Shown: in pieces, positions 6,857 through 17,690 of the stretch | How positions within the stretch are numbered: position 1 is the first letter of the stretch | Layout of the letters: every line of letters begins with the position of its first letter | From: a virus | DNA length: 22,328 bases | Reading direction: 5' to 3' (one strand) | Virus record (IMG/VR): IMGVR_UViG_3300009436_000123 | Coordinates: 1 to 22,328 of that record | Made by a program: the position numbers and the translations under genes | The notes under the pieces: model-generated | The model's database searches: none | What the model was told of the DNA's origin: nothing | What the model saw: only the letters and a program-made list of their open reading frames with translations

Positions 6857-7460
6857 ATTGATGAGAATGGATATAGGATGAATTGTCGTCCGATATAGAT
6901 CTCAAAGGAGCCTTATCTTGGGACGCTCTTCGTTTTGCCTGTTTAATGGCTTTTTCATACTCCCGATTCATCATCTCACGTTCATTAATCTCACCTGTTA
7001 ATGGTTTCGCAATACGTGCCGCCAATCGGTATACAAGGGCAGAAATCAAATAATCAGGAAGAACAGACGCATCGGTTATCGTCTTCCCGTAATGTAAAAA
7101 GATTGGTGTTTCATTGGCTAGTATTCTTAAGCTAGCTACATCAGATCCTTCAATTCGGTAATCGGAATTTTGGAATCCCTCGGTTGTTGTTACCTTATTA
7201 AGGTAATTAAAATCATTGGGTATACTAAAGCTATAATCAAATTCAGTGTCCACCGCAGGGGCACCGACAGAAACTAACTTAGAAACCACTCGAAGAATGG
7301 GAAAGTCATAGGTGCTTAATACTTCTTTAAGCACCGAAGAAAAGGCAGGAGAAACCACACGAGCCGCCGAACTGGACGGACTGTCGAAATCTGCTTGAGT
7401 AATTGTAGCACTACCTAATTCCAGTAGTGCTTGATTCGCTATCTCTAAATTAGTTGCCAT
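6843..7460 (-). CDS. Tail adaptor protein (tail tubular protein A, T7 gp11-like)
   Basis: A 205-residue protein begins MATNLEIANQALLELGSATI, with a helical start followed by a YDFPILRV segment and FSIPNDFNYLNKV. Later come DYLISALVYRLAARIAKPLTG and a basic helix (YEKAIKQAKRRASQDK). This matches the gp11/gp4-type adaptors that ring the portal and carry the nozzle: N-terminal helix bundle, central beta part, C-terminal helices. The ATG lies 10 bases after a strong hairpin terminator, so this gene probably needs read-through or its own promoter. Start context is TTTTCATTATG, without a Shine-Dalgarno sequence. Confidence 0.9.
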   Translation of the reverse strand: MATNLEIANQALLELGSATITQADFDSPSSSAARVVSPAFSSVLKEVLSTYDFPILRVVSKLVSVGAPAVDTEFDYSFSIPNDFNYLNKVTTTEGFQNSDYRIEGSDVASLRILANETPIFLHYGKTITDASVLPDYLISALVYRLAARIAKPLTGEINEREMMNREYEKAIKQAKRRASQDKAPLRSISDDNSSYIHSHQYGDV

Positions 7461-7461
7461 A

Positions 7462-7500
7462 ATGAAAAGGGTCCCTCACCCAACCCGAAGGTGAGGGACC
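7462..7500 (-). terminator. Rho-independent terminator after the capsid/decoration genes
   Basis: A perfect 11-bp stem (7490-7500 pairing with 7470-7480) has a 9-base loop. On the minus strand it is followed by CTTTTCATT, a moderate U-tract. It sits 20 bases past the decoration-gene stop and just before the adaptor ATG, comparable to the terminator after the T7 capsid gene. It would give more capsid than tail transcript. Confidence 0.85.
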
Positions 7501-7519
7501 ACTGGTTCATTGTCGAGGA

Positions 7520-7924
7520 CTAAGAGTTCTCGACGTAGAGGATGTAACCTACAAAACTGGTCACAGTAGCAGCCGCAGTTGCGAATACGCTAGTGAGTTC
7601 AGTAGTAGTTGCTTGATAAGCTTCGAAAGCGGCAGCAGCAGTGATACCATCGACGAATACGTCTACAGCGGTATCTACTGGAGTTGCTTTCGCAGTCCAA
7701 CCAATGTCAATCGCGCCAGTGATCGCAGTAACAGCACCACCAATAATGGTGACGTCTTTACCGAACTCAGCTAGCTCAATTTGATCTCCCGTGGCAGCAG
7801 CACCCGAGGAGAATTTTTTAATACGAACTCGCGCACCTGACTCGATAGGAGCCAAAGGCGAGGGATTTTCAGCGCGAACTTGAGTAAGTTCAACACCGAC
7901 TTTGTCGAATGTAATAGCAGCCAT
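7520..7924 (-). CDS. Probable head decoration / minor capsid protein
   Basis: A 134-residue protein is rich in Ala, Thr, Val and Gly, with a beta-like pattern (SGARVRIKKFSSGAAATGDQ, then VTIIGGAVTAITGAIDIGW) and no membrane segment. It lies 24 bases after the major capsid gene and shares a terminator with it, so the two should be made from one transcript at comparable levels. Decoration, cement or head-fibre proteins commonly occupy this slot. I do not recognise a family, so the role is inferred from position and composition. The start context is ACATATATTATG, a good match to the AT-rich start motif of this genome. Confidence 0.6.
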   Translation of the reverse strand: MAAITFDKVGVELTQVRAENPSPLAPIESGARVRIKKFSSGAAATGDQIELAEFGKDVTIIGGAVTAITGAIDIGWTAKATPVDTAVDVFVDGITAAAAFEAYQATTTELTSVFATAAATVTSFVGYILYVENS

Positions 7925-12230: not shown

Positions 12231-12576
12231 AATATTTTCTTAGTTTGTAAGTAGAAAGAAACCGAAGTTCGGTGTCCAAGTATTTTAAGTATCTATGAAA
12301 ACCAATCCTGTCAAGAGAGTAAGGCATCAGTTTACAAAAGGTTAACATATTTGATCCTGACGTATAATCTATGTGCCAATAGTCCCCTTTAGCATCCGTC
12401 GCTTTTCGAAACAAGAAGATAGCTGTGGGGCCTATGTACGTGTGGTACTCATCCTCGGGTAACCGATACAGATAGGAATCCAGAAGATCCCCAAAGTTCT
12501 CGCCGCGAAGTCGGTATAACTTATGGGCATCTTCCAACAAAGATGTACGAACGGGGGCTGTGCTAGTTATGGACAT
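12151..12576 (-). CDS. Conserved small protein between terminase and portal; possibly GNAT-like
   Basis: A 141-residue protein with a well-structured core: LLDSYLYRLPEDEYHTYIG, then AIFLFRKATDAKGDYWHIDY and MPYSLDRIGFHRYLKYLDTE, LRFLSTYKLRKYYG. Alternating strands followed by helices, plus the LRFL-type motif near the end, recall GNAT-like small podovirus proteins such as T7 gp13. The likeness is weak and no acetyl-CoA motif is visible. The start overlaps the large-terminase stop by one base (TAATG). The last ~23 residues are a low-complexity Ala/Ser/Thr tail produced by reading the next gene's proline codons in another frame, so that tail may be a secondary extension. Confidence 0.75.
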   Translation of the reverse strand: MSITSTAPVRTSLLEDAHKLYRLRGENFGDLLDSYLYRLPEDEYHTYIGPTAIFLFRKATDAKGDYWHIDYTSGSNMLTFCKLMPYSLDRIGFHRYLKYLDTELRFLSTYKLRKYYGIKTKNASTASTASAPSTAPYSNCA

Positions 12577-13901
12577 TAAAAATCAACCTCTCTTATCTTA
12601 TACGTGTTCCGATCCTTCCGAGTTCGGGCATTACGGTCATATTCACGGTTCGCCTTGAGCCCAACAGCCAATGTCGAGAAAGCATCGGCACCATGGGACG
12701 CATTATTGTGGATAGCCTGTTTCTTGAACACTTGCTTAGACTCGTCCCACTCTTTGGCGTAGTTCTTCAAATGCTCGATACCCAAGGAACAATTAGTCGT
12801 ATCAAACCAGCATTTCGGTAGTGTCTGACGTACCGCCTCGATCTGGTCGCTCTTACCCATCCGTTTAACAACAGTTGGCTTGATACCTAGAGATCTGAGA
12901 GTTTCGATACGAGATTTCCCTGTTCCAAGCTCCCTAACCGCCACATCATGAGGTAAGTAGTGCTTTCCATACGTAAAATCATGTAAGGACGACAATCTTT
13001 GCAGTTCCTTAGCATAAAACGGTAATCCCTCACCAGAGTTCTCATAGTAAAAGATAGGACGCAGCTCATTTCGGTATTGTTGGGCAAACCAGATGCTCGT
13101 GCTGTCATCCATACCCAAATCCCACCCAGTAATCACTGGCAACGCTGGATCGGGGCTGATCTTGTCCAACATCTGCCCCTTGTGGTACAATTTAGTCAAT
13201 ATGTCCCCATAATAGGAACCCTCGACTGGTGTATCAAAGCTAGACATGAACTCCTGCTGGAACAATGCCTCACTCATCTCATCTCGCGCCTTACGCAGAT
13301 CAGCTGGCTTAATAGCCTTAGTTTTAGTCACAGGTAAGTGACTAACAAACCAATCAGGGTCTGCTTCAGCCTTCTTCAACAACTTGTACATGTGGTTCTT
13401 ACCACGAGGCGTACTATTGAATATAGCCCAACCACCATTCTCCGCTAACACAGGATTCAAGAAGTGCCAAATACTGGGGTCGCACAAAGCATACTCCGAA
13501 AATATAATACCAATAGGGTTCGTACCAACCACTCGGTCAGGGTTATCCGCACCAACCAACTGAATCACGGAACCATTGGTCAGCGTCAGAGACATTTCCT
13601 GCTCAGACTTACGGACAACCAACTCGCGGGGCACGAAGTCAATGAACTTACGCCCCTCACCATCCTGACCCTGCCACAGAATCTTACGCAACTGATTCTG
13701 GAACGGACCTACATAAAGATACAGCCCCTTCCGCTGGAGCGCCTTAATCGCCATTACATTGATACAAGTCAAATCCTTACCCGCACGTCGATGCCATACA
13801 AGCACTGCTCGTAAGCTTTTCGCACTGGGTGCCATATACTTAAGCAAAGGTAACTGATAATGTCTAGGGATATATCCCTGCGCAGGTAATTGTACACTCA
13901 T
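12576..13901 (-). CDS. terL: Terminase large subunit
   Basis: A 441-residue packaging motor with ATPase and nuclease domains. Walker A is WHRRAGKD (residues 36-43), a known deviant form. Walker B is GIIFSEYA (131-138) with catalytic Glu136. The coupling motif is STPRGKNH (163-170). The RNase H-like nuclease shows Asp261 in GWDLG, Asp319 in LPHDVAVRE and Asp406 in HGADAF, the usual acidic triad. It cuts concatemers and pumps DNA through the portal. The length is normal to slightly short for podovirus TerL. It follows the small terminase after 19 bases, and its stop overlaps the next ATG by one base. Confidence 0.96.
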   Translation of the reverse strand: MSVQLPAQGYIPRHYQLPLLKYMAPSAKSLRAVLVWHRRAGKDLTCINVMAIKALQRKGLYLYVGPFQNQLRKILWQGQDGEGRKFIDFVPRELVVRKSEQEMSLTLTNGSVIQLVGADNPDRVVGTNPIGIIFSEYALCDPSIWHFLNPVLAENGGWAIFNSTPRGKNHMYKLLKKAEADPDWFVSHLPVTKTKAIKPADLRKARDEMSEALFQQEFMSSFDTPVEGSYYGDILTKLYHKGQMLDKISPDPALPVITGWDLGMDDSTSIWFAQQYRNELRPIFYYENSGEGLPFYAKELQRLSSLHDFTYGKHYLPHDVAVRELGTGKSRIETLRSLGIKPTVVKRMGKSDQIEAVRQTLPKCWFDTTNCSLGIEHLKNYAKEWDESKQVFKKQAIHNNASHGADAFSTLAVGLKANREYDRNARTRKDRNTYKIREVDF

Positions 13902-13920: not shown

Positions 13921-14535
13921 TTAAATGGATCCGTCGTTCTCTGTTACATTGGCCGTGGCCTCTGGTGGCGTAAACTCACCGTAGTCGTATACCTCATCTT
14001 CATCTTCTTCCACATCAAACACGTCTACGTCATCAGCCGCCATAGCTGCGGCAACCAAATCCTTCTGGGTAGTCTGGGCGAAATCAACAACGTTAATAGT
14101 CATATTACTCTGCACATCAGCCTGAAGGTCAATTGTTTTCGGCTTAGCTGCAAAGAACCCACTCAACTCCTTAGTCACAGCGATTCTATCCTTAACGGGC
14201 AATACATACTCCCCATCTGCATCCTTCTCCGTCACAAACTCAATTAGTGCCCCTAGTGGATTGAATCCTGCATCCTCGAACATAGCCAAGACCATCTTAC
14301 GCTGCTGGGATGGAGTCGGGGCTTCAGACATCATCTCCAACAACTGCTGCTTTACCAACAACTTCTTCTCGGTAGACGCAGTCTCTCGTTGAATCTCCAT
14401 AAGCTTCTGGGAAGCTTTAGGCAAACGTTTCGTATCTCTCACACGCTTCCGCTCTTTTTGCTTGGTTACTTGCTTGGGTCGAACGCCGTTGGAGGTTTTC
14501 CTCTTATCTGCGAATGGGTCTCGTTTGATGGGCAT
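13921..14535 (-). CDS. Terminase small subunit (probable)
   Basis: A 204-residue protein is first in the structural block, directly before the large terminase. It has a basic N-terminus (KQKERKRVRDTKRLPKASQ), a helical middle with DAGFNPLGALIEFV and VKDRIAVTKELSGFFAAKPK, and a very acidic C-terminus (VDVFDVEEDEDEVYDYG). The middle segment resembles small terminase-type proteins I recall from aquatic podoviruses; such proteins recognise genome ends or concatemer junctions and recruit TerL. No classic helix-turn-helix is obvious, so the call rests mainly on position and overall pattern. Just upstream on the minus strand lies TTGACT with a TAGAAA hexamer 16 bases further on, a possible promoter very close to the ATG. 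Confidence 0.75.
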   Translation of the reverse strand: MPIKRDPFADKRKTSNGVRPKQVTKQKERKRVRDTKRLPKASQKLMEIQRETASTEKKLLVKQQLLEMMSEAPTPSQQRKMVLAMFEDAGFNPLGALIEFVTEKDADGEYVLPVKDRIAVTKELSGFFAAKPKTIDLQADVQSNMTINVVDFAQTTQKDLVAAAMAADDVDVFDVEEDEDEVYDYGEFTPPEATANVTENDGSI

Positions 14536-14547
14536 GGTTCTTTTCTA

Positions 14548-14573
14548 GGGTTCATGGGCTCTTAGTCAAGAAA
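14548..14573 (-). promoter_or_regulatory. Possible promoter of the late (structural) block
   Basis: On the minus strand TTGACT is followed after 16 bases by TAGAAA. The -10 element would be only about 7 bases from the small-terminase ATG, implying an almost leaderless transcript. It is a fair but not perfect sigma70-like match and is the best candidate between the inverted-repeat region and the first late gene. Confidence 0.25.
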
Positions 14574-14618
14574 TTCATGCCTGTTTCTTTCGAACAAGGA
14601 AAGGCCATTCCCTAAAAT

Positions 14619-14849
14619 CTACCAAATCTACCAGAGCTTTTTGGAATCTTGGTAGAACATTAAACAATAACATCTATCAACGACTTACAGAATATTTACC
14701 GATTTACCCTACCAAGCGACTAACTTTACCATAGTAGTTTCTTAAATGAAAATGTCTGGTAAATTGGTAGATATTACATAAGTCGTTGATAACCCTATAT
14801 CTCCACTTGTTCTACCAGAGGGGTGGTAAATGGCGAAATTTGTTGGTAG
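14619..14849. repeat. CTACCA-box cluster within a large inverted repeat (origin or control region)
   Basis: Seven exact CTACCA/TGGTAG hexamers lie at 14619, 14628, 14650, 14709, 14765, 14812 and 14844, with several degenerate TTACC/GGTAA copies between them. They form an imperfect inverted repeat centred near 14733. Its perfect 13-bp core is at 14675-14687 and 14779-14791. Matching outer boxes (14650-14659 with 14808-14817) and inner segments (14691-14708 with 14758-14775) are equally spaced from the centre. The AT-rich interior lies exactly between the divergent minus- and plus-strand gene blocks. Iteron-like boxes in an inverted repeat at a divergence point fit a replication origin, a binding array for a regulator of both blocks, or both. 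Which of these it is cannot be told from sequence. Confidence 0.75.
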
Positions 14850-14879
14850 AAAACGCTGTTTTTGGGGTAAATCGGCCTG

Positions 14880-14907
14880 TTTGGCTAACATAAACCGTTA
14901 GTATAAT
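14880..14907 (+). promoter_or_regulatory. Candidate rightward promoter
   Basis: A consensus TATAAT (14902-14907) has TTTGGC 16 bases upstream (14880-14885). A small inverted repeat, CTAAC with GTTAG, lies in the spacer and could be an operator. It would start a transcript near 14914, running through the C-rich stretch and the structured region towards the plus-strand genes. The -35 match is only moderate. Confidence 0.35.
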
Positions 14908-14934
14908 CGAAAAATCGGAATTTTGGGTTCGTGG

Positions 14935-15390
14935 GATGGGTCCCCCTACTCCCTTCGGACTCCAAAGTTCCCCATGCCCCCCCCTTCGCCCAGATTCCTT
15001 GTTCCAATGGCTCCGTGTTCCCGTTGCCCCAAGGCTCCGTGTTCCCATGGTTCCGTGCTCCCATGTATATATATACCCTGCACCCCAGCACCCCTGTTAC
15101 CATGCACCCATGCACCATGCTACCCTGTTACCATGCACCGTGGATGCGTGGGTTATATCCCACCGTCACCATGACACCATGACCCACACCCATCCGTGTC
15201 GCTCCACCACTGGGCTCACAGCCACCCTGACCCCTGTCATCCATCAACCCACATCACCCATCAGCCTACCCACGCCCCACCAAGGCTCTCTGCTGCCCTT
15301 CAAGCCCCTCTACCATCGTAACCATGGTAACACCCATCCAATGCACCCAAAGCAACCCTTGGCACAACAAGGGCTCTGGACATAGTTACC
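14935..15390 (+). repeat. C-rich, G-poor low-complexity stretch with short direct repeats
   Basis: This stretch has no supported gene. It is dominated by CCC, CCATG and CACC words. Three copies of GGYTCCGTGYTCCC lie at 15009, 15033 and 15049. An exact 17-bp direct repeat (CCCTGTTACCATGCACC) lies at 15092-15108 and 15123-15139. CACCATGA is repeated at 15167 and 15176. Short open frames cross it on both strands, but their products are low-complexity and have no good start signal. It resembles minisatellite-type DNA grown by slippage, or a weakly structured C-rich RNA leader. Confidence 0.7.
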
Positions 15391-15885
15391 CCGCAATCTC
15401 ACAAGTGGTTGCTTGATCGACCGCTCCTCGTCCCTCGTCGGGCACGATGCTTCACTGCCCTTCGTAGTTACTCTCAACGCTTCGCTCCGTTGTATGCCGC
15501 CTTAGGCGTCAAGCTCATTTACCATGGGCTCGGAAAGACCGCTCCGTCAGCGATGCACTGCCCATAGATTGGCTTAGGCCAATCACGCACCCCTGCTGCC
15601 CTAATGCCATCGTCACTGTAGCCCTAGCCGCCACTGTCTCATCAGGTTCGCTTATGCTCACCAGCTAAGCCATTGGACGGGGGCTACCACATTCCCTGAT
15701 GTCATTGGTCATCATGCGCACGGGTCATCACACCCTGCCGAGGGAAGCTGCGCTCCCTATCGCTGCAAGTGAAAACAAGGTATATTCCCGCAAGCGGGCC
15801 CCTTTCCTTGTTGCTGTTGGCCATTACGTGGGCAGACCCACGATGGCTCAACGCCCCTACGGGTTCACTGGCGTCTTCGCCTAGC
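15391..15885 (+). ncRNA. Putative large structured non-coding RNA (~490 nt)
   Basis: This gene-free stretch is tiled by stems that mostly do not conflict. Pairings seen: 15440-15444/15456-15460; 15475-15479/15488-15492; 15498-15501/15505-15508; 15524-15529/15560-15565 enclosing 15531-15534/15543-15546; 15567-15573/15578-15584; a long-range stem 15601-15611/15698-15708 (one mismatch) enclosing 15618-15624/15681-15687, which encloses 15650-15654/15666-15670; 15741-15745/15754-15758; 15774-15780/15806-15812 enclosing 15787-15790/15795-15798; and a long hairpin 15816-15852 with a CAGA loop. G-U pairs at 15602/15707 and 15819/15848 favour the plus strand. It is visibly GC-richer than the neighbouring genes. 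In size and habit it recalls large ornate phage RNAs such as GOLLD and ROOL, though I recognise neither consensus. Exact ends are guesses. Confidence 0.5.
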
Positions 15886-15951
15886 ACCCATGATTATTAT
15901 AGATAGCATCATCATCAAGATAAGATGCGCTTAACCAACATACTAAATATT

Positions 15952-16614
15952 ATGAAAGACTACAACCCAGACCTAGAAGACGCCTTAAACGATGAGTTCA
16001 ACGAGTTGCAATACGAACAGTATGACTCAACAGATGCAGCCTCAACCACTGCTGGCTGCATTACAGCCACCATACAGTATGCCTCATGCGGTTCCAAATA
16101 CACCGAGTCGTTCCAAAAAATCCAGCACCTTCGCGACTTCCTTGATTACAACAGTTGCTGGGCAGTGCTCGTAGGTTTCACCTCAAACGGTGAGACCTAT
16201 GAAACCCTTGCTGACTACCCCGATGAGTCGTCGTCAAAGCCTGAAGCACAAGGCGGGGACACATCGAATCCATGTAATAATAAAGAGGAATTATCCGACA
16301 ATCTTGTCACAACTAAATCAAATCAAACTAAATCAAATACTATGAAACCAATCGCAGCTATCGTAACTAACACAAAGACAGCCATCAGCAACATGACAGG
16401 TGAGGACGTCGTGATCCACGACATCTACACCATTGACGGCGAGTTTGTCCAAGTTTGGTCGGACACACCCGCACCTCTCGCTAAAATAAATGAAGAGACC
16501 TACGTCGTCTGCAAGGTTGACTCCTACAAGAAGCACGGGGAACCAGTCGAGCGCAAGCACTGGCACATCATCCCTACAGCATTCGCCGAAAAGATGATCA
16601 GCTCAGCCGTTTAA
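15952..16614 (+). CDS. Unknown two-part protein, first gene of the rightward block
   Basis: A 220-residue protein of unknown function. The start chosen is the ATG at 15952 because it follows CTAAATATT, the local start motif; an in-frame ATG at 15925 lacks it. Residues 1-95 form an acidic, Thr/Ser-rich part (MKDYNPDLEDALNDEF, later FLDYNSCWAVLVGF). A disordered Ser/Asn/Lys/Thr linker follows (about 96-130). From Met131 (16342) there is a compact domain: MKPIAAIVTNTKTAISNM, then GEDVVIHDIYTIDGEFVQVW and ending HWHIIPTAFAEKM. The internal ATG is directly preceded by a 15-bp-period repeat like those before two other starts, so a separate 90-residue product from 16342 is plausible. This may be two genes fused in frame, or one gene with an internal start. 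Confidence 0.7.
   Translation: MKDYNPDLEDALNDEFNELQYEQYDSTDAASTTAGCITATIQYASCGSKYTESFQKIQHLRDFLDYNSCWAVLVGFTSNGETYETLADYPDESSSKPEAQGGDTSNPCNNKEELSDNLVTTKSNQTKSNTMKPIAAIVTNTKTAISNMTGEDVVIHDIYTIDGEFVQVWSDTPAPLAKINEETYVVCKVDSYKKHGEPVERKHWHIIPTAFAEKMISSAV
16313..16338 (+). repeat. 15-bp-period direct repeat before an internal ATG
   Basis: CTAAATCAAAT occurs at 16313-16323 and again at 16328-16338, ending three bases before the in-frame ATG at 16342. The stretch is A-rich and nearly free of G. The same arrangement appears before the starts at 17697 and 22155. Confidence 0.75.
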
Positions 16615-17577: not shown

Positions 17578-17645
17578 GCCTCCGCAAGGGACACTGCCTC
17601 CGCAAGGGACACTGCCTCCGCAAGGGACACTGCCTCCGCAGGGGG
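17578..17645 (+). repeat. 18-bp tandem repeat, three and a half copies
   Basis: Three exact copies of GCCTCCGCAAGGGACACT lie at 17578-17595, 17596-17613 and 17614-17631, followed by a partial copy to about 17645. Each unit contains CCGCAAGG, which can form a very short stem with a GCAA (GNRA-type) loop. It lies in the untranslated leader between a terminator and the next gene. Confidence 0.95.
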
Positions 17646-17690
17646 AACAACTACACTTCTAACAACTACACTTCTAACAACTACACACAC
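17646..17690 (+). repeat. 15-bp tandem repeat in a gene leader
   Basis: AACAACTACACTTCT occurs twice exactly (17646-17660, 17661-17675), with a third partial copy (17676-17690) ending six bases before the ATG at 17697. It contains no G and should be unstructured. It directly follows the 18-bp repeat. Confidence 0.95.

Follow-up and report, generated by a model that had tools for sequence, protein, structure and literature searches.

The virus record analysed here, referred to as the window, comprises 22,328 bases and is an internal genome fragment whose leftward and rightward genes are separated by a non-coding gap at positions 14536-15924. Leftward from 14535, a gene in the position of the terminase small subunit (TerS; 13921-14535, minus strand, 204 aa) is followed by the terminase large subunit gene (TerL; 12576-13901, minus strand, matching phrog_2 and phrog_2472) and, as assigned by PHROGs, by those for a head-tail adaptor, the major head protein and the tail. 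The TerS-position gene, which is kept upstream of TerL in relatives, gave no PHROG or Pfam match and is named by position only. From about 15925 on, small early-type genes, most of which match no family, form a rightward operon, and its first open reading frame (15925-16614, plus strand) likely starts at 15952, aligned with the start in the relative L002. A destabilase-like lysozyme gene (Pfam PF05497, 21626-22030) lies in this early-side operon, and short GC-rich units (GCCTCCGCAAGGGACACT; CGCCTAGGCTCC-type) form arrays between early genes at 17578-17686 of the window (array 17578-17644) and at 1480-1760 of the relative L006. Relatives, all of them uncultivated viral contigs, were gathered via TerL, the early gene E2 and a DNA motif. 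The TerS-position gene and E2 found no isolate match among 50,697 phage records, TerL reached at most 46% identity to phage records, and the DNA of the region matched no isolate phage. Other lineages of the group were L006, L010, L012/L011/L016/L014, L015, L138, L147, L149, L140/L144, G001, L027, L028, L042, L163/L036 and L161/L045.

Within the gap, an iteron-bearing inverted repeat, a conserved motif, a palindrome and a hairpin-rich leader follow one another in this order. The inverted repeat (14675-14791, TATCAACGACTTAc...gTAAGTCGTTGATA) adjoins the terminase genes, is A+T-rich, has 34-nt arms that are 85% complementary and includes the short repeats TCTACCA/TGGTAGA. Its arms (TATCAACGACTTA...TAAGTCGTTGATA) are similar across lineages and the inner short repeats are lineage-specific, being TCTACCA in the window, TTACCA in L006, TTCCCA in L010, TGTAGC in L012, TGACCCC in L015 and AGACAC in L163, so that the element looks like a candidate origin or operator, bound by a protein whose specificity changes. 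The conserved motif (GGGTCCCCC-N-CCCCATGCCCCCCCC, 14938-14984, plus strand), which reads GGGTCCC...CCCCATGCCCCCC, recurs at the equivalent place in the group, where roughly 17 contigs have it; a scan of prokaryote genomes with it returned nine unrelated-looking matches. The first base of contig G001 (46,221 bases) is the second G of this motif, and its last 228 bp repeat the contig start exactly (contig ends L110 and L111). The same test on contig G006 gave a 127-bp overlap typical of assemblers, and the 228 bp of G001 are therefore no obvious artefact. Since G001 starts in the motif and carries this terminal repeat, the motif probably marks, on the evidence of this one contig, the physical left genome end (14938/14939, cut after the first G). 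On its far side, the G001 repeat ends in a palindrome loop (GTGGCTTAATG-CAACTGGCTTA-CATTAAGCCAC, 11 bp). A small palindrome of the window, GTGGG-TTATAT-CCCAC (15148-15163), is its counterpart by position only and would form the far end of a terminal repeat of about 217 bp. The hairpin-rich leader would then lie 450-950 bp inside the genome end and outside the terminal repeat. The preliminary description of this DNA had argued from 1.4 kb without genes to a functional RNA, an argument that loses its force once the gap is accounted for by a putative genome end, a packaging motif, iterons and a leader. A tRNA-like minus-strand reading near 15200 (GAGCC..GTGGTGGAGCG) was rejected, as ARAGORN called no tRNA and the D-stem does not form. 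The end motif was also present in L142 and L141, which have no detectable TerL match to the window, and this suggests that it is wider than the phage group.

The hairpin-rich non-coding leader itself occupies 15391-15885 (plus strand) and is directly preceded by a promoter-like TTGGCA-16-CATAGT at 15359-15386 (plus strand), a pattern for which one match was found and 1.6 are expected by chance. The sequence GGCTCTGkACATAGTyACC at 15359-15389, which covers the weak promoter-like −10, is common to L002 and nearly so to the distant L028; written as GGCTCTGtAyATAGTcACC, the element covers both relatives. All stems listed in the preliminary description were located in the sequence, and pairing counts bear them out. 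In the nested domain, the outer stem 15601-15611/15698-15708 has 10 of 11 positions paired, one of them G-U, around the perfect stem 15618-15624/15681-15687 (GTAGCCC/GGGCTAC) and the stem 15650-15654/15666-15670 (GCTTA/TAAGC); the bulged hairpin 15816-15852 was likewise confirmed. Most listed stems recur in the computed folds of the region, and the minimum-energy folds for RNA and for DNA alike contain the bulged hairpin and the inside of the nested domain. This base complementarity is real, yet by itself it is no evidence of function. Compared with dinucleotide shuffles, the plus-strand RNA fold gave a z of −2.3, with 1 of 100 shuffles equally good, the minus-strand RNA fold a z of −1.9, which shows no clear strand preference, and the fold with DNA parameters a z of −3.3. 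The stems thus exceed chance weakly. Such a value is ordinary for this genome: 7 of 31 other 495-nt tiles of the window, most of them genic, fold equally well or better against shuffles on the plus strand, and energy alone therefore does not single out 15391-15885.

Comparison with L002 (= L020), the only close relative that spans the whole gap (about 87% nucleotide identity), divides the leader into conserved blocks and variable segments. Block S1 (15394-15442, plus strand), with one mismatch to L002 and an 8-bp hairpin (AGTGGTTG/CGACCGCT) in the folds, is followed by the variable segment V1 (15443-15511), whose hairpins are unlike those of L002 (GGCTTC-TAAA-GAAGCC there). Next come S2 (15526-15557, 32 nt identical) and V2 (15561-15716), which contains the nested domain and is represented in L002 by only about 25 nt with an ATAGCC...GGCTAT hairpin. 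Block S3 (15726-15812, 87 nt identical) carries the hairpins AGGGA/TCCCT and ACAAGG-CCCGCAAGCGGG-CCTTGT and has a 7-nt match to S2 (CAGCGAT/ATCGCTG); V3 (15813-15854), the bulged hairpin, is missing in L002; S4 (15855-15889, 35 nt identical) forms the hairpin GGGT..GGCG-TCTT-CGCC..ACCC; and S5 (15901-15944, 44 nt identical) lies before the first early gene. All these segments are given on the plus strand. At the 4-fold degenerate sites of four genes, the window and L002 are 61-74% identical. Identical runs of 87, 35, 32 and 44 nt (S3, S4, S2 and S5) at such divergence indicate that something non-coding is constrained, but not the stems that had been singled out: L002 has neither the nested domain nor the bulged hairpin and carries different, shorter hairpins in two of the three variable segments, and its own leader (L020:6267-6645) folds with a z of −3.6. 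Covariation at the listed stems thus comes down to one relative that covers the region and lacks the main ones; a search for more close relatives with exact patterns from S2 and S3 gave L002 alone. Coding does not explain the conservation either. The best small open reading frame (15699-15884) runs over the 87-nt block and is out of frame after S3 in L002, and S3 shows no synonymous changes between the two; the absence of a credible gene thus stands, and ARAGORN found no tRNA in the region. Recent exchange between the window phage and L002, or DNA-level sites, could also have caused the identity of the identical blocks. The proposal of a functional RNA accordingly keeps its non-coding constraint and loses its chosen stems, and the large gap, the many stems and the stems chosen from them do not carry the conclusion drawn from them.

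In four more distant relatives, an equivalent place is occupied by a structured RNA of about 220 nt, here called family X, with the first early gene following after 43-50 nt. The family was recognized from a 267-nt element that G001 and L028 both have directly ahead of this gene (73% identity), and the pattern of this element led to three more records; members are G001, L028/L162, L163/L036 and L161/L045/L165 (loci L111:629-850, L162:5825-6049, L163:13677-13917 and, on the minus strand, L161:2669-2909). The four distinct sequences have a common 58-pair fold with 98.3% of cells paired, a value that drops to 34-46% when the partners are slid. Sixteen pairs show compensatory changes on both sides, a number reached by 0 of 500 shuffles, although L161 and L163 are closely related and the independent events are fewer than these counts. 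Single-sequence folding z values are −4.3 and −5.5, and the covariance model of the family, R1, gives 222-232 bits on the early-gene (plus) strand versus at most 24 on the other. The fold keeps an invariant G-U pair and conserved unpaired segments. Just upstream, an H-type pseudoknot is possible in L161, L163, L028, L027 and G001, for example TTACTTGG-AGTCATC-CAAGTAACCAA-GATGACT, with stems that by eye vary compensatingly (L163:13633-13672 and equivalents). L027 retains this pseudoknot and the outer stem of family X (ACACAAC/GTTGTGT) around a different core, and domains therefore appear to be replaced wholesale. Family X has no match in Rfam and is the firm new result of this analysis, a real, previously uncatalogued folded RNA of the relatives; the preliminary description was right to see in 15391-15885 a non-coding element that merits attention, and a new phage RNA may indeed lie nearby.

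The window resembles family X in place (behind the end motif and just ahead of the early genes), phage group and the combination of a conserved core with variable arms: its last hairpin ends at 15889, 62 nt before the start at 15952, or 35 nt if the start is 15925. No match in sequence or structure could be detected between the two. Without filters, model R1 reached at best 5.6 bits in the window region and 3.4 in L002, and neither nhmmer nor a two-strand core-motif test found family X in the window above chance. As far as this can be judged by such searches, the window and L002 are not detectably family X and would carry a different or unrecognisably diverged leader. Kinship with GOLLD or ROOL, which had been suggested, also found no backing, as Rfam 15 at gathering thresholds (including OLE, HEARO and all other families) gave no match in the window or nine related loci, and permissive searches returned chance-level matches to miRNAs and the like alone. 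A phi29-type packaging RNA, which goes with a pRNA-dependent packaging ATPase and no TerL/TerS pair, does not fit the canonical terminase large subunit with its TerS-position gene. A T7-type RNA polymerase (PF00940) was not found in four relatives, in a search whose control gave no match either.

For 15391-15885 we favour, at about an even chance, a genome-end leader that is probably transcribed and structured and that evolves by exchange of hairpin arms. It would represent the non-coding leading region of a podovirus-like phage, extending from the putative left end at 14938/14939 to the first early gene; rightward early transcription from a promoter near 15359-15386 would most likely include it as a structured RNA leader or a small RNA, in which the short constrained cores S1-S5 would bear hairpin arms that are gained, lost and exchanged among relatives. 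Its role may be guessed at: the fold, made from the first-entering DNA, could act on the early message by controlling its processing, stability or translation, or could bind a host factor. In the window phage itself a structured RNA is plausible rather than proven. More broadly, and only tentatively, the leaders of the group might form an early RNA class just inside the genome end, in which place and short cores are kept and whole hairpin domains are swapped between lineages, with family X as one version and the leaders of the window and L002 as a second; such an RNA would belong to the first transcripts off the entering genome.

Among the other explanations, the best surviving one, which we still regard as unlikely, places the function in the DNA, with palindromes and blocks serving replication, packaging or protein binding near the genome end and transcript structure being irrelevant. 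It draws on the adjacent iteron-bearing inverted repeat and the putative terminal repeat, on the about equally strong folding of both strands and on the DNA z, which beats the RNA z; yet the blocks would lie 450-950 bp from the end, beyond the terminal repeat, and structure in the relatives is one-stranded, with 222 versus 24 bits for the two strands of G001 and with the G-U pair and unpaired segments kept in family X. It is improbable that the gap is a tolerant spacer in which small palindromic elements pile up and the tiled stems have no function, because S2-S5 are conserved far above synonymous sites, even though the stems differ between the window and L002, these phages have repeats of GC-rich palindromic units at other places (17578-17644; L006 1480-1760) and the fold is not unusual for the genome. 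Very improbable is a distant member of family X (the RNA of G001, L028, L163 and L161) with its sequence similarity lost, for which the equivalent place before the first early gene, the likeness of the S1 hairpin GGTTGCTTGAwCGACC to GGTTGCTrTGCGAACC of family X and the domain replacement in L027 would speak, but nhmmer, unfiltered cmsearch and the core-motif test all remain at chance level.

The genome-end leader may be compared with known systems. The T7-type left end consists of a terminal repeat, a leading region of about 0.9 kb, early promoters and leader hairpins for RNase III, and a hairpin end has been reported at T7 concatemer junctions. Similarly, the window would have a direct terminal repeat of about 0.2 kb, followed by a non-coding stretch of several hundred bases that leads to rightward early genes, and the palindrome in which the G001 repeat ends recalls the T7 concatemer-junction hairpin. 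In contrast to T7, the terminase and structural genes of the window run the opposite way from the other genome end, the leader is far richer in hairpins, and the repeat is known from one contig (G001). GOLLD and ROOL are phage-encoded structured RNAs of unknown function, and GOLLD, often >800 nt long and near tRNA islands, has one conserved and one less conserved part (PMC12286853). The window leader also has conserved and variable parts, but it is shorter, has no tRNA gene and no Rfam match. If our reading is correct, it would account for the long gene-free stretch in these phages, indicate where an uncultured podovirus group has its genome end and packaging signal, and add one covarying structured RNA family that Rfam lacks; swapping of leader-RNA domains would then be a case of fold and place outlasting sequence, which sequence-based RNA searches miss.

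Strong local folds were also found in the leaders of L012, L149, L028 and L027. That of L012 (L012:10440-10650), which recurs in near-identical relatives, is an imperfect, near-continuous hairpin of about 190 nt upstream of the early genes (about −94 kcal/mol, local z −7.5), and it may be related to family X (CCCCGACC facing GGTCAATGG). As divergent members of the family, L012 and L042 (CCCGACC/CAATGG strands) were suggestive by eye and not significant. Elsewhere in the window, the tile 7201-7695 folds with z values of about −4.4 and −4.2 on the two strands and spans the gene boundary at 7461-7519, where it perhaps contains a terminator.
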